This document shows positions 43,598-48,813 of a DNA stretch of 64,000 nucleotides, piece by piece. The stretch is from the NCBI RefSeq assembly GCF_002252565.1, contig NZ_NPML01000029.1, positions 124,001-188,000 of the forward strand, read 5' to 3'. A model generated the notes under the pieces. That model was not told where the DNA came from and did not search any database. It was given only the letters and a program-made list of their open reading frames with translations. The DNA comes from Petroclostridium xylanilyticum. Its GTDB lineage: Bacteria > Bacillota > Clostridia > SK-Y3. A program made the translations under genes and the position numbers. Within the stretch, counting starts at the first letter, position 1. Each line of letters starts with the position of its first letter.

Positions 43598-44299
43598 TTG
43601 AAAAAGGCTGTAGTCCTATTATCAGGCGGTTTAGATTCAGCAACAGCTTTATATTTAGCGAAAGCAGAGGGTTATGAGGTTTACGCCATATCCTTTGATT
43701 ATGGGCAAAGGCATAATAAAGAGCTTTTATGTGCGGCAAAGCTGGCAGAAAAAGCGGGAGTAAAACAGCATATTACTATTAAAACAAACATGGAGGCCTG
43801 GGGAGGGTCTGCGTTAACAGATAGAAGTATAGATATTCCCAAAGGAGATGAAAATAGAAAGGATATACCCGTAACATATGTCCCGGCAAGAAACATGATA
43901 TTCCTTTCCTATGCAGCATCTTACGCCGAGACAATCGGTTCACAGGATATCTTTATTGGGGTAAGCCAGGTTGATTACTCAGGTTATGTTGACTGCAGAC
44001 AGGAATTTATTAATGCAATGGAACATGCTATTAATATGGGAACGGTATGTGCAGTGGAGCATGGAAAAAAGATAAAGATACACGCACCTTTTATTCATAT
44101 GAAAAAGTCGGAAGAAATACAGCTTGGGATGAAGCTTGGAGTAGATTACAGCTTTACCTGGTCGTGTTACAGGGGGGAAGATTTGGCATGTGGCGTGTGT
44201 GACAGTTGTGTATTAAGATTAAAGGCTTTCCATGAGGCAGGATATGGTGATCCTATAAAATATAAGGGGAATGGCAATGGTAAACGTATCAATCACTAA
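43598..44299 (+). CDS. queC: 7-cyano-7-deazaguanine synthase QueC
   Basis: A TTG start behind AAAGGGTGAG gives a 233-residue ATPase of the PP-loop type ([15 protein letters not shown], residues 7-21). The zinc-binding cysteines are in the C-terminal part ([15 protein letters not shown]). It converts 7-carboxy-7-deazaguanine to preQ0 with ammonia and ATP. It is the first gene of the queuosine operon behind the preQ1 riboswitch and is followed by queD, which starts within its last codons. Confidence 0.95.
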
Positions 44300-44765
44300 A
44301 GAATTTACATGGGATATGGCACATATGCTGGCAGGTCATGAAGGATTGTGTAAAAATATACATGGCCATACTTATAAGATGCAAGTTGAAGTAACAAGAA
44401 AGACAGGGGATTTAATAACTACTCCGGGAAATTCACAAGAGGGCATGGTTATAGATTTTAATCATTTAAAAAACATAGTCAAAGACAAGATCATCGACCC
44501 TCTCGATCATGCTTTTATGTATTGGTGCCAATCCCCCGATTCTTTGGAACATGAAATAGCAGAATTATTAAAAAAACATGGCAGGAAAATTGCTGTAGTG
44601 ACATATAAGCCTACGGCTGAAGAGATGGCAAGAAATTTCCTGAAAATCTTAAGCCGGGAATTTGATAAACATGATATAATAATACAAAGTGTTAAGGTTT
44701 GGGAGACACCCACAAGCTTTGCAACGGCAAGGCAGGAGGGAAAATATGACAGTGAACAAATTTAA
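44277..44765 (+). CDS. queD: 6-carboxytetrahydropterin synthase QueD
   Basis: I choose the ATG at 44277, 7 bases behind AAGGGG, over the ATG at 44271; the product has 162 residues. Zinc ligands are His in [10 protein letters not shown] and the HGHTYKM pair, and the catalytic Cys lies between them (LCKNIHGH). It converts dihydroneopterin triphosphate, the FolE product, to 6-carboxytetrahydropterin. It overlaps queC by 23 bases and queE by 20. Confidence 0.92.
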
Positions 44766-45492
44766 AAATGCTATCATACCGGTAGTTGAAATATTTAACA
44801 GTGTGTCTGGAGAAGGAATCTCTGCAGGGAGTATTGCAACCTTTGTTAGAGTGGCAGGGTGCAACCTAAGATGTAGTTATTGTGACACTACTTACAGTTA
44901 TGACGAGTATAATGAAGACAATCAAATGATGACTCCTGATGAGATTGTTGACAGAGTAGCAGCTTTAGGATGTAAAGATATCATATGTACCGGAGGAGAA
45001 CCATTAGAACTTCAAAAGCCTAAGAGATATTTACCACTTTATTTGGCTTCTAAAGGATTTAGAGTGAGAATAGAAACCAACGGCAGTTGTCCGGTGTATA
45101 GCAGTGAAGAGCTGGAGTGTTTTTTGAGAGGGGAGCGTTTGCCGGTACTATATTACGCCTTAGATATCAAGTGTCCCGGTTCTGGGATGTCTAAATATAA
45201 TCTCTTTGAGCAGAATCTGGAGAAACTATATGAAGGTGATGAGCTTAAGTTTGTGGTAAGCCATCGGCAAGATATAGACTACGCCGTGAAAATAATAGAA
45301 AAGTATAAAGATATTTTAGCCTTAAATAAAGTAATCATTAATTTCTCTCCGGTATTTGGCCGGATAGAGCCTAGAGAACTGGTGGAAGTGCTAAAAGAAA
45401 AACATCAATATTTTTCAAATTATTCATTGCAGGTAAGGCTAAGTTTGCAGATTCATAAAATCATATGGCCGGCAGATACAAAAGGCGTATAA
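44746..45492 (+). CDS. queE: 7-carboxy-7-deazaguanine synthase QueE (radical SAM)
   Basis: The ATG at 44746 behind AGGAGGG gives 248 residues. The radical-SAM cluster motif is CNLRCSYC (CxxxCxxC) near residues 33-40, preceded by FNSVSGEGISAG, the typical QueE N-terminus, and followed by CTGGEPLELQ. It rearranges 6-carboxytetrahydropterin to 7-carboxy-7-deazaguanine. A YSYDEYNEDNQMM insertion behind the cluster lies where QueE proteins vary. The start overlaps queD by 20 bases. Confidence 0.93.
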   Translation: MTVNKFKNAIIPVVEIFNSVSGEGISAGSIATFVRVAGCNLRCSYCDTTYSYDEYNEDNQMMTPDEIVDRVAALGCKDIICTGGEPLELQKPKRYLPLYLASKGFRVRIETNGSCPVYSSEELECFLRGERLPVLYYALDIKCPGSGMSKYNLFEQNLEKLYEGDELKFVVSHRQDIDYAVKIIEKYKDILALNKVIINFSPVFGRIEPRELVEVLKEKHQYFSNYSLQVRLSLQIHKIIWPADTKGV

Positions 45493-45547: not shown

Positions 45548-46108
45548 ATGATAGATCAAGAAAAGATTCGAAAAGCCATGCGGATGATGATAGAAGCTAT
45601 AGGAGAAGACCCTGATAGAGAAGGACTTAAAGATACGCCCGACCGCGTGGCCCGAATGTATGCAGAAATATTTAGCGGATTATGGGAAGACCCAAAGGAA
45701 TATCTTCAGGTGTGCTTCAGTGAAGACCATGAAGAAATGGTACTGGTCAAAGATATTCCATTTTATTCTATGTGTGAGCATCATTTTCTTCCGTTTATAG
45801 GTAAGGCCCATGTTGCATATATACCGGCAAAAGGTAAAATAACCGGCCTGAGCAAGCTGGCCCGAGTGGTGGATAGTATTGCCAAGAGGCCGCAGTTGCA
45901 GGAACGTTTGACGGGTGAGATTGCCGATGTATTGATGGAGTGTCTGGAACCGCAAGGTGTAGCAGTTGTGATAGAGGCAGAGCATTTGTGCATGAGTATG
46001 AGAGGTATAAAAAAGCCCGGCTCTAAGACTGTTACATCGGCAGTCCGAGGTATCTTTAGGAGTAATGCCAAAACACGGGCAGAGGCTTTTGCATTAATAA
46101 AGGGGTAG
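45548..46108 (+). CDS. folE: GTP cyclohydrolase I FolE
   Basis: The 186-residue enzyme has [16 protein letters not shown], the zinc ligands in [14 protein letters not shown] and CLSKLARVV-type [10 protein letters not shown], and [13 protein letters not shown] with the second zinc Cys. It converts GTP to dihydroneopterin triphosphate, the shared precursor of folate and queuosine. Its place between queE and the HD gene, and the folP-B-K genes just downstream, fit both uses. AAAGGAG precedes the ATG. Confidence 0.97.
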
Positions 46109-46119
46109 GAGAGGTTTTA

Positions 46120-46599
46120 GTGAAAAGGATTGCCAAAATACTTGAGAATCCTCAATATATTGATTATTTAAATCGGAATGCCGAGGCTGAAAAGGACAGG
46201 GTGTTTTGTCATCATGACCTTTGTCATGCGGTTGACGTCGCAAGAGTAGCCTATATAATGGTATTGGAAAATAGGCTTATGATAAAAAAAGATATAATCT
46301 ATGCTGCAGCTTTACTGCATGACATAGGGCGGTGGAAAGAGTATGCCCAAGGGCTTGACCATGCAGAAGTAAGTGCCCAACTGGCGGTGGATATATTGAT
46401 AGATAGCGGGTTTAACAGTGAGGAAAGAGATTTTATATTGAGGGCCATACGGGATCACCGTAAGGATGGCAATCAAAGTACATTTTTTAGTTCGGTACTG
46501 TATAAAAGCGACAAAATGTCTCGACTGTGCAATGAATGCCTTGCAAGAGAACAGTGTAAACGCTTTTCGGATGGAAGACAGCCGGAGTTATATTATTGA
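46120..46599 (+). CDS. HD-domain phosphohydrolase in the folate/queuosine cluster
   Basis: A GTG start behind GGAGAGG, 11 bases after folE, gives a 159-residue HD-superfamily protein. The metal-binding residues are visible: His in CHHDLCHAVDVARVA, the HD pair in ALLHDIGRW (near residues 68-69), and a downstream RDHR. The C-terminus has a small cysteine cluster (LCNECLAREQC). HD proteins hydrolyse phosphate esters of nucleotides and related molecules. Its position between folE and folP suggests that it may dephosphorylate dihydroneopterin triphosphate or monophosphate, a step with no dedicated gene in this cluster; that is inference. Confidence 0.8.
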   Translation: MKRIAKILENPQYIDYLNRNAEAEKDRVFCHHDLCHAVDVARVAYIMVLENRLMIKKDIIYAAALLHDIGRWKEYAQGLDHAEVSAQLAVDILIDSGFNSEERDFILRAIRDHRKDGNQSTFFSSVLYKSDKMSRLCNECLAREQCKRFSDGRQPELYY

Positions 46600-46840
46600 T
46601 AACAGAGTGGACTTCTCCAAGTTCCTAGCTATTTTTATATTAACGTCCATGCCGGGCGCACCCGGCAGGCTTCGACATGGGGACGGTTCCTCAGTCGCAT
46701 GAAAAGCGCATTCGACAGACGAACCGTCCCCAAGTCGCATCCCCTGCTAAACCGGACTTTTTCTGTGGTTTCGGTTTTACTCCCCACTCCCCACTGTTCA
46801 CTCCCCACTATTTTCATATTACAAAGGAGGATAAAACTGT
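46600..46840. other. Intergenic region between the HD gene and folP
   Basis: It holds a short CG-rich hairpin (TGCCGGGCGCACCCGGCA, 46650-46667), the 71-bp repeat and a run of CTCCCCACT-type units (46781-46808). No promoter is clear. AAAGGAGG is the folP ribosome site. Confidence 0.5.
46669..46739. repeat. 71-bp palindromic repeat, copy 1
   Basis: GGGGACGGTTC and GAACCGTCCCC form a stem in a 71-bp unit that begins GCTTCGACATG and ends AAGTCGCA. A copy with a single difference lies at 48615-48685; the two flank folP-folB-folK. Confidence 0.85.
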
Positions 46841-47656
46841 ATGACTAGGCAATTACACATAGGTAACAAAACATGGTGCTGGGGCCAGCGTACATATATC
46901 ATGGGTATATTGAATGTTACACCCGATTCTTTTTCGGACGGCGGCCGTTTTTTTGGCCATGATGCTGCTATAGAGCGTGCCCGGCAGATGGTAGACCAGG
47001 GAGCTGATATCATAGATGTAGGAGGAGAGTCCACACGGCCGGGTTTTGAGCCGGTATCGGCTGAGCAGGAGATGGAAAGGATTGTGCCTGTGATAGAGAA
47101 GTTGGCCCGGGATATGGATATACCTATATCTGTGGATACATACAAAGCCAGGACGGCTGAGGCGGCTATACAGGCCGGTGCACACATGCTTAATGATATA
47201 TGGGGTCTAAAGGCCGACCTTGAAATGGGGAGTGTTGCAGCCCAATACCAAGTACCAGTATGCATCATGCACAATAAAGTTAATGCTGAATACGACAATA
47301 TTATAGAGGATATGATTAGGGAGTTATCCGAAAGCATTGAGATAGCACTAAAGGCCGGCGTGAAGGATGAGAATATTATCATAGATCCCGGCATAGGATT
47401 TGGAAAGACTTGGGAGCATAACTTACAAGTTATGCGAAATCTGGAACAATTTAAACGGTTGGGTTATCCTGTGCTTTTGGGGACATCCCGCAAATCGTTT
47501 ATAGGCAAGGTGCTTGACCTCCCGGTGGAAGAACGGTTGGAAGGAACCATAGCTACTACGGTGGCAGGTATTATGAAAGGTGTAGATATAGTGCGTGTAC
47601 ATGACGTACTGCAGAATAAACGTGCAGCTATTATGACTGATGAGATGGTGAGATAG
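46841..47656 (+). CDS. folP: Dihydropteroate synthase FolP
   Basis: The 271-residue enzyme has MGILNVTPDSFSDGG (residues 20-34), VGGESTRPG, IDPGIGFGK and GTSRKSFIG, all standard for dihydropteroate synthase. It joins p-aminobenzoate (from pabB-pabC) with the pterin pyrophosphate made by FolK. It is followed by folB with a 2-base gap. The length and motifs are normal; it is the usual target of sulfonamides. Confidence 0.96.
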   Translation: MTRQLHIGNKTWCWGQRTYIMGILNVTPDSFSDGGRFFGHDAAIERARQMVDQGADIIDVGGESTRPGFEPVSAEQEMERIVPVIEKLARDMDIPISVDTYKARTAEAAIQAGAHMLNDIWGLKADLEMGSVAAQYQVPVCIMHNKVNAEYDNIIEDMIRELSESIEIALKAGVKDENIIIDPGIGFGKTWEHNLQVMRNLEQFKRLGYPVLLGTSRKSFIGKVLDLPVEERLEGTIATTVAGIMKGVDIVRVHDVLQNKRAAIMTDEMVR

Positions 47657-47658
47657 AT

Positions 47659-48024
47659 ATGGATAAAATAATTATTGAAGAATTGGAGGTATATGCTTAT
47701 CATGGCGTGGCACCCGAAGAAAAAGCCCTGGGGCAGATGTTTATTATATCGGTGGAAGTAACTGCTGACCTTAAAGCGGCAGCCTGTGCTGATGAACTGT
47801 CATATACCATCAACTATGGCAATTTATGTGCTGATATAGAGAAAGTGCTGACATCCCGCAAGTATGAACTAATAGAGGCCGCTGCTATGGCGGTGATTGA
47901 GCGGATACTTGATAACTATCCGGCTGTGATGTCTGTTAAAGTCTTACTAAAGAAGCCGTGGGCCCCTCTAGGGCGCCACTTGAAATATGTTGCAGTGGAA
48001 ATGGAGCGCCGGCGTGGCAGTTAA
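47659..48024 (+). CDS. folB: Dihydroneopterin aldolase FolB
   Basis: The 121-residue protein has the family pattern VYAYHGVAPEEKALGQMF at the N-terminus, TINYGNLCADIEKVL and LIEAAAMAVIERIL, and the C-terminal VKVLLKKPWAPLG. It cleaves dihydroneopterin to 6-hydroxymethyl-dihydropterin and glycolaldehyde. It lies 2 bases behind folP and 17 before folK in one operon. Confidence 0.94.
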   Translation: MDKIIIEELEVYAYHGVAPEEKALGQMFIISVEVTADLKAAACADELSYTINYGNLCADIEKVLTSRKYELIEAAAMAVIERILDNYPAVMSVKVLLKKPWAPLGRHLKYVAVEMERRRGS

Positions 48025-48041: not shown

Positions 48042-48518
48042 ATGTATAAAGATAAAATAAAAGCTTATTTAGGCATAGGGTCTAACATAGGAGACAGGCA
48101 GTCCAATCTGGACGCAGCTGTCGGTATGCTGCGGCATACCAGGGGCATAGAAATAAGGAATGTTTCTTCATTTTATAATACGGCTCCAGTAGGATATACA
48201 GCTCAACCCGACTTTCTAAACGGAGTTGTCGAGATAGAAACCATTCTTACCCCACATGAGCTTCTAAAAATATGTCAAACAATAGAGGACAAATTAAAAC
48301 GGGTGCGTACCATACGATGGGGACCCCGTACTATAGATATAGATATACTGCTGTATGATGAATTAATTATACAGGATGAAAATCTTATTATTCCCCATCC
48401 GCATATGCACCAAAGGGAATTTGTATTACAGCCGCTTAATGATATAGCTCCAGAAGTCATCCACCCGGTTTTTAAAATGACGGTATGCAAGCTGTATGAA
48501 CGTTTGAAATCTAAATAA
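48042..48518 (+). CDS. folK: Hydroxymethyl-dihydropterin pyrophosphokinase FolK
   Basis: The ATG at 48042 behind AGAGAGG gives a normal 158-residue enzyme: AYLGIGSNIGDR, YNTAPVGYTAQPDFLNGV, and RWGPRTIDIDILLYD with the Mg-binding aspartates, then PHPHMHQREFVLQPL. It transfers pyrophosphate from ATP to hydroxymethyl-dihydropterin. The frame is open from 47958, within folB, but the first 28 codons do not resemble the family. Confidence 0.95.
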   Translation: MYKDKIKAYLGIGSNIGDRQSNLDAAVGMLRHTRGIEIRNVSSFYNTAPVGYTAQPDFLNGVVEIETILTPHELLKICQTIEDKLKRVRTIRWGPRTIDIDILLYDELIIQDENLIIPHPHMHQREFVLQPLNDIAPEVIHPVFKMTVCKLYERLKSK

Positions 48519-48813
48519 ATCCGGTATAAGCCGACGGCAAGACATGGGATATATGATGGTACTCAGCCGTGAGGAACCGTCCGAAACTGCTGAAAAAGTG
48601 CTTGAGTGCTCAGGGCTTCGACATGGGGACAGTTCCTCAGTCGCATGAAAAGCGCATTCGACAGACGAACCGTCCCCAAGTCGCAGCCCTTCTTCCTGCT
48701 GAACCGGACTTTTTCAGTGATTTTGAACCGTTTCGTTTACATGTCGAAGCCTTGACCAATTAAGTATACTTTCATCATTTTTGTGCCGGTTAGTTAGAAT
48801 AGAGGTGAAAAAG
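48519..48813. other. Intergenic region between folK and the hydrogenase-system regulator
   Basis: Most of it is repeat-derived: GAGGAACCGTCCGAAACTG (48571-48589), the 71-bp unit, and CTGAACCGGACTTTTTCAG-type segments that also occur near 46745-46765. It carries no gene. Confidence 0.55.
48615..48685. repeat. 71-bp palindromic repeat, copy 2
   Basis: Matches 46669-46739 at 70 of 71 positions, in the same orientation. Sequence on both sides (CTGCTGAACCGGACTTTTTC) is also shared in part with the first copy's surroundings, so the full repeat may be longer. Confidence 0.85.

Follow-up and report, generated by a model that had tools for sequence, protein, structure and literature searches.

An HD-domain protein encoded between folE and folP as a candidate for the dephosphorylation step of folate synthesis

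Introduction

The idea that an HD-domain protein has a FolQ2-type function in folate synthesis is not new, having been published in 2007 as a prediction (PMC1971073). When the pathway was surveyed in that work by de Crecy-Lagard et al., most genomes had no gene assigned to the dephosphorylation of dihydroneopterin triphosphate, and an HDIG-family protein, 'FolQ2', was proposed for this step. CPE1020 of Clostridium perfringens is one example, the legend of Figure 5B gives fhs and dhfr as neighbours in FolQ2 clusters, and the table of the same paper marks FolQ2 as not experimentally verified. FolQ2 is also among the accepted variants in gut-genome reconstructions (PMC6593275). These two papers are the only ones in the open-licence literature in which we found the term, and no experimental test of the prediction was found there; a test in a subscription journal is possible.

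According to a review of the HD superfamily (PMC8177086), a six-residue H...HD...H...H...D signature, of which YqeK is an example, is diagnostic of a dinuclear site, and HD phosphatases conserve an arginine, typically at position -3 relative to the first histidine that binds metal. Here, an HD gene in a folate cluster of Petroclostridium xylanilyticum is compared with these systems by its genomic linkage, co-occurrence, conserved residues, and predicted fold.

The HD gene and its neighbours

The window, a stretch of 64,000 nucleotides, contains the HD gene in a run of genes for folate synthesis (Table 1). As originally noted, the gene starts 11 bases after folE, the stop codon of which occupies positions 46106-46108, and AGGAGAGG reads as a good ribosome-binding sequence ahead of the GTG start. 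The encoded protein matches the HD domain PF01966 (Pfam) with 42.7 bits (cut-off 22) and the HDIG model TIGR00277 with 30.3 bits (cut-off 27.6). HD is its sole Pfam match at E 0.001, with no Nudix domain present, and a search of its own genome with the protein gave one match at E 0.001. The calls of folE, folP, folB, and folK were made with NCBIfam equivalog cut-offs; of the genes just upstream, QueC exceeds its cut-off, and QueD (85.7 vs. 89.25 bits) and QueE (200.8 vs. 260.1 bits) fall below theirs.

Table 1. Features of the folate gene cluster and of the HD gene in the window
Feature	Position	Strand	Evidence
queC-queD-queE	43598..45492	+	just upstream; QueC over its cut-off
folE, GTP cyclohydrolase I	45548..46108	+	TIGR00063 256 bits, cut-off 181.6
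Shine-Dalgarno-like AGGAGAGG	46107..46114	+	read from sequence; overlaps folE stop codon, precedes HD start
HD-domain hydrolase gene (folQ2-type)	46120..46599	+	159 aa ORF, GTG start, PF01966, AlphaFold2 model
Cys30 codon	46207..46209	+	invariant in 26 and 81 sequences
His36 codon, first ligand of H...HD...H...H...D motif	46225..46227	+	alignment; motif meaning from PMC8177086
His67-Asp68 codons, HD pair	46318..46323	+	alignment
His81 codon, extra ligand expected for dimetal site	46360..46362	+	alignment, invariant
His113 codon, extra ligand expected for dimetal site	46456..46458	+	alignment, invariant
Asp131 codon, last motif ligand	46510..46512	+	alignment, invariant
CxxCx5C: Cys137, Cys140, Cys146	46528..46557	+	invariant in 26 and 81 sequences
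folP, dihydropteroate synthase	46841..47656	+	TIGR01496 345 bits, cut-off 162.6
folB, dihydroneopterin aldolase	47659..48024	+	TIGR00525 113 bits, cut-off 72.15
folK, HPPK	48048..48518	+	TIGR01498 158 bits, cut-off 54.1

The order originally noted, with the HD gene ahead of folP-folB-folK, was confirmed, but folP is not directly next: the two genes are separated by a spacer of 241 bases, which contains a dispersed palindromic repeat. In the relative at L002 (79% identical), the same spacer has only ~40 bases. The repeat, ~73 bases long, lies at window positions 46668-46740, between the HD gene and folP, and again at 48614-48685; it folds as a strong hairpin and is dispersed over at least 40 places in the genome (40 of 87 candidates scored).

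The product of FolE is also used by QueD. A PTPS-III bypass of the dephosphorylation step was considered and set aside; folB is present in the window cluster, and by eye the window QueD has the motif C-x3-HGH.

Linkage to folate genes

A survey of gene neighbourhoods, named beforehand as a test that could refute the assignment, spoke for it and placed the HD gene in folate clusters in 25/26 carriers of the class sample, 62/63 carriers of the phylum sample, and 80/80 named loci, and the 26th class member stands beside a pabB-type gene. The class carriers were found among 147 genomes and have folP within 1.5 kb of the HD gene, mostly together with folB and folK. In the exception, G135 (L128), the HD gene is flanked by a pabB-type gene for chorismate binding on one side and by a gene for DAHP synthase-chorismate mutase on the other. 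In this genome, folE, folP, folB, and folK are found together on another contig, without the HD gene.

The phylum carriers, found among 249 genomes, have the HD gene beside folP. In 48 of the 63, folP follows downstream on the same contig and strand, within 0.7 kb (n = 47) or 3.5 kb (n = 1), and in a further 14 folP, folB, and folK all adjoin the HD gene. In the one unlinked carrier, G337, the contig ends ~180 bases past the HD gene. In each of the 80 named loci, pre-selected as close relatives, a fol gene shares the strand of the HD gene, at a distance of at most 611 bases in 78 of them and of 3.0-3.1 kb in L031 and L033. The space in L031 is filled by pabA-, pabB-, and pabC-type genes, giving the order HD-pabA-pabB-pabC-folE-folP-folB-folK, with pabC below its cut-offs.

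A consistent link to folE itself had been named as a result that would support the assignment. Linkage to the folate cluster is consistent, but folE is part of it in only 16 of the 26 class carriers: 13 have it inside the 1.5-kb flank, and G141, G101, and G055 have it slightly further away on the same contig. In the other 10, it lies elsewhere. The HD gene tracks folP-folB-folK more than folE.

Further ties to folate metabolism come from single loci. A formate-THF ligase (fhs) gene is found just upstream of the subfamily member in L044. In L014, which belongs to the 26 class members, and in L052 and L092, from the 80 named loci, a Mur-ligase domain and the HD domain are encoded in a single reading frame; read from the sequence, the ligase part appears to be of the FolC type.

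In Syntrophomonas-type clusters, an apparent extra gene behind the HD gene and ahead of folP was rejected, as the gap corresponds to a longer folP N-terminus. In L113, L121, L123, and genomes of the phylum sample, the folP frames comprise ~390-450 aa, with an N-terminal extension of more than 100 residues before the pterin-binding domain.

Co-occurrence with folP

The HD gene is present in 26 of the 40 class genomes with folP over its cut-off and in none of the remaining 107 (folP-like matches below the cut-off occur in seven of these), and in 63 of 189 phylum genomes with folP and none of 60 without it (Fisher 4e-19 and 2e-9, respectively; the p-values ignore shared ancestry, and the two samples have three carriers and at least six non-carriers in common). 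Thus, every carrier in either sample has folP. Being a hydrolase from a superfamily of metal-dependent phosphohydrolases, and present only in genomes with the folate pathway, the HD protein fits the gap at the dephosphorylation step.

The other steps of the pterin branch are covered by FolE, FolB, FolK, and FolP, so the dephosphorylation of dihydroneopterin tri- and/or monophosphate is left as the step to which the cluster offers no other assigned enzyme. Together with the linkage and co-occurrence, this supports the original proposal of the protein as a candidate for the step. In our view, the protein is probably an HD hydrolase that depends on metal ions and is devoted to the synthesis of folate, and from the sequence data we predict that it dephosphorylates 7,8-dihydroneopterin triphosphate. 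In the proposed route, FolE would make 7,8-dihydroneopterin triphosphate, the HD protein would remove phosphate from it, most likely yielding the monophosphate and pyrophosphate as in the FolQ reaction, and possibly continue to free dihydroneopterin, which FolB would then cleave. Both the substrate and the bond cut are what we infer for the HD protein. The monophosphate and pyrophosphate are the likelier products because YqeK and YpgQ, characterised HD diphosphatases that are near to it in motif or fold, cut phosphoanhydrides (PMC8177086).

The HD gene is not generally required, since 14/40 class and 126/189 phylum genomes with folP lack it, and these genomes must solve the dephosphorylation step otherwise. 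Its absence there would also suit a housekeeping or regulatory hydrolase of the folate pathway, acting for instance on a pterin phosphate that has been damaged or on a signalling nucleotide and not in the main step, and the FolC-type fusions and the pabB linkage are as compatible with a general folate role as with a pterin role. We regard such a role as highly unlikely: the linkage to folate genes is near absolute, and a cluster that encodes FolE, FolB, FolK, and FolP still leaves the dephosphorylation step to be filled.

Nudix proteins and the number of phosphates removed

The absence of a Nudix-type gene from the window folate cluster was confirmed, and the genome encodes two PF00293 (Nudix) proteins, both outside the cluster. 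Against the E. coli-type NudB model NF006961, one of these had no match at E 0.01 and the other scored 16.3 vs. the required 103 bits. The same model was over its cut-off in 0/147 class genomes and in one of 14 control genomes, so that these counts do not show whether HD and NudB exclude each other. For the 14 class genomes that have folP and lack the HD gene, a home-made Nudix pattern, run on ORFs of at least 90 aa in the fol regions, had no match; three of these regions (L113, L118, and L126) are truncated by the end of a contig, and the ORFs were chosen crudely, with some known fol genes overlooked, such as folP in L126. In the 80 named loci, the pattern had a single match, an ORF two genes past folK in L090; for 62 of these loci, the view covered five ORFs before the HD gene and seven behind it.

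The two Nudix proteins of the genome are one of the points against a FolQ-type role, along with the unlinked HD gene of G337 and the absence of the arginine at position -3 (see below). They would also leave room for a division of labour, in which a Nudix or other enzyme removes pyrophosphate and the HD protein takes only the last phosphate as a dihydroneopterin monophosphatase. HD monophosphatases such as YfbR are known (PMC8177086), and neither phosphate-removal step has another assigned enzyme. This reading is unlikely in our judgement, as YfbR and YGK1 are mononuclear (PMC8177086), in contrast to the HD subfamily, in which both additional histidines of a dinuclear site are retained, and as NudB was not over its cut-off in any of the class genomes.

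The opposite extension of the preferred triphosphate reading is that a single enzyme leads from the triphosphate to dihydroneopterin, replacing FolQ and the unspecific phosphatase in anaerobes. The protein would then be a new kind of HD hydrolase with a dimetal centre and a four-cysteine metal cluster, perhaps [4Fe-4S]. The HD enzyme OxsA, which removes three phosphates in turn (PMC8177086), offers a precedent for the stepwise removal of all phosphates by one HD enzyme; still, we put this forward as a speculative proposal with a low chance of being correct.

Conserved residues of the subfamily

Judged from sequence, the window HD protein belongs to a distinct subfamily: in the class sample (147 genomes), the E value went from 1.5e-23 for the 26th carrier to 1.6e-11 for the HD protein ranked behind it. 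Two overlapping sets were aligned, the 26 class-sample members and 81 sequences comprising the window protein and the named loci, which are the best 80 of at least 265 relatives and are hence biased toward close relatives. PF01966 matches all 81 at E 0.01. Thirteen residues are invariant in both sets (C30, H32, H36, R42, H67, D68, H81, H113, D131, R135, C137, C140, and C146). The C-terminal cysteine group had been described as CxxCx4C, which needs correction: the spacing is CxxCx5C, in all 81 aligned members, and C30 adds a fourth invariant cysteine. Residues C30, C137, C140, and C146 may bind Zn or an Fe-S cluster. The copy in G337 of the phylum sample is without the third cysteine.

The dinuclear HD signature is complete and invariant in both sets (H36, H67, D68, H81, H113, and D131), and two metal ions would be expected at these residues. 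The phosphatase-type arginine at position -3 is absent: D, G, or N occupies position 33 in 25/26 and 71/81 sequences (letters seen for 79 of the 81; Asp in the window protein). Other arginines are conserved, R42 and R135 invariantly and R27 in 26/26 and 78/81 sequences, all of them away from the -3 position.

MptB, the archaeal HD enzyme of methanopterin synthesis, has a cyclic pterin phosphate as its substrate and is like the window protein in its HD domain. As a known HD enzyme on a pterin phosphate, it could serve as a model for the window protein, which would then be a phosphodiesterase with a cyclic pterin phosphate as its target. An HD motif of the dimetal kind is characteristic of phosphodiesterases (PMC8177086), but the partner here is the bacterial FolE, the product of which is a triphosphate (PMC1971073) and contains no cyclic phosphate, making an MptB-like reaction exceedingly improbable.

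For four weaker HD proteins (L027-L030), flanks that extended up to 1.5 kb showed no fol gene. The HD proteins of G389 and G390, which were seen in full, lack the cysteines of FCxH and CxxCx5C, and the 10-kb regions surrounding them yielded no fol gene. In L158 and L159, representing at least two genomes of one genus, an HD protein of ~165 aa without the subfamily cysteines is encoded beside a gene for ~800 aa, presumably SpoIIE-like as judged by eye.

A phosphoesterase near folP in a family without the HD gene

A different phosphatase is found in family f47, where an orthologue-level HD match was obtained in 0/14 sampled genomes (best E 3e-14 vs. 1e-31 or better in the phylum carriers). The two best of these HD proteins seen in full are devoid of the subfamily cysteines, and the regions around them contained no fol gene. 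In 8/8 close homologues (L144-L151, in genomes G097, G397, G398, G395, G394, G387, G075, and G388), the gene for a calcineurin-like phosphoesterase precedes folP by 14-118 bases and shares its strand, and the copy in G097 matches PF12850. A phosphoesterase match was not found in G396 of this family, and the third genus (five genomes) has distant phosphoesterases only, with no fol genes beside them. The calcineurin-like protein is put forward as a candidate, possibly a second replacement for the dephosphorylation of dihydroneopterin triphosphate; a second phosphatase in the same slot upstream of folP accords with this slot representing the dephosphorylation step.

Predicted structure and comparison with known systems

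The AlphaFold2 model of the window HD protein is confident (mean pLDDT 95.7, pTM 0.91). A Foldseek search against the PDB gave one match with E under 0.001, 2pq7, and the top fold matches by Z were 2pq7 (14.1), PPX/GppA helical domains, Ddi2, an archaeal tRNA-processing enzyme, SAMHD1, and YpgQ. Several HD enzymes of differing function match. The modelled fold identifies an HD protein and not a substrate.

The closest solved structure by both sequence (E 5.6e-14) and fold is 2pq7, a predicted HD hydrolase of an uncultured Thermotogales bacterium. It has the HDxxH, HD, H, H, and D residues in common with the window protein in the alignment. In contrast to the window protein, it has no counterpart of Cys30, and the match ends before CxxCx5C; its annotation goes no further than a predicted hydrolase. 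YpgQ (5dqw) is an HD nucleotide pyrophosphohydrolase, a diphosphatase on (d)NTPs (PMC8177086), and aligns with the model at Z 10.8, TM 0.54, and rmsd 3.5 over 134 residues (Foldseek E 0.06), although helical folds can reach such Z values by arrangement alone. In both proteins, an active-site histidine is found at position -4 relative to the first histidine that binds metal (H25/H29 in YpgQ, H32/H36 in the window protein; PMC8177086). YpgQ differs in its mononuclear motif, and a cysteine cluster is not described for it in the relevant parts of PMC8177086; the word 'cysteine' is absent from the text of this superfamily review as available. YqeK, an HD diphosphatase with a diiron site, has the six-residue motif in common with the window protein (PMC8177086), which scores 14.1 bits against the YqeK model TIGR00488, below the cut-off of 70.15. 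FolQ/NudB of Lactococcus and E. coli, which are Nudix dihydroneopterin triphosphate pyrophosphatases, have the reaction proposed for the HD protein and the same position of the pathway, with a Nudix instead of an HD domain.

The linkage and co-occurrence counts make the short 2007 prediction a sharply testable assignment, and if it is confirmed, a gap in metabolic reconstructions will be closed. As far as the content of PMC1971073, PMC6593275, and PMC8177086 could be compared, the sampled statistics, the Cys4-dimetal signature, the fusions, and the possible phosphoesterase replacement are new here. The nearest described system is FolQ2 itself, which is likewise an HD-domain phosphohydrolase in a folate gene cluster, known from Clostridium and with the same proposed step (PMC1971073); like FolQ2, the window protein is of the HDIG type and encoded among folate genes. 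Cysteines, a dimetal motif, and fusions are not described for FolQ2 in the corresponding parts of PMC1971073. CPE1020 is a presumed orthologue of the window protein, and the subfamily includes members from other Clostridium species.
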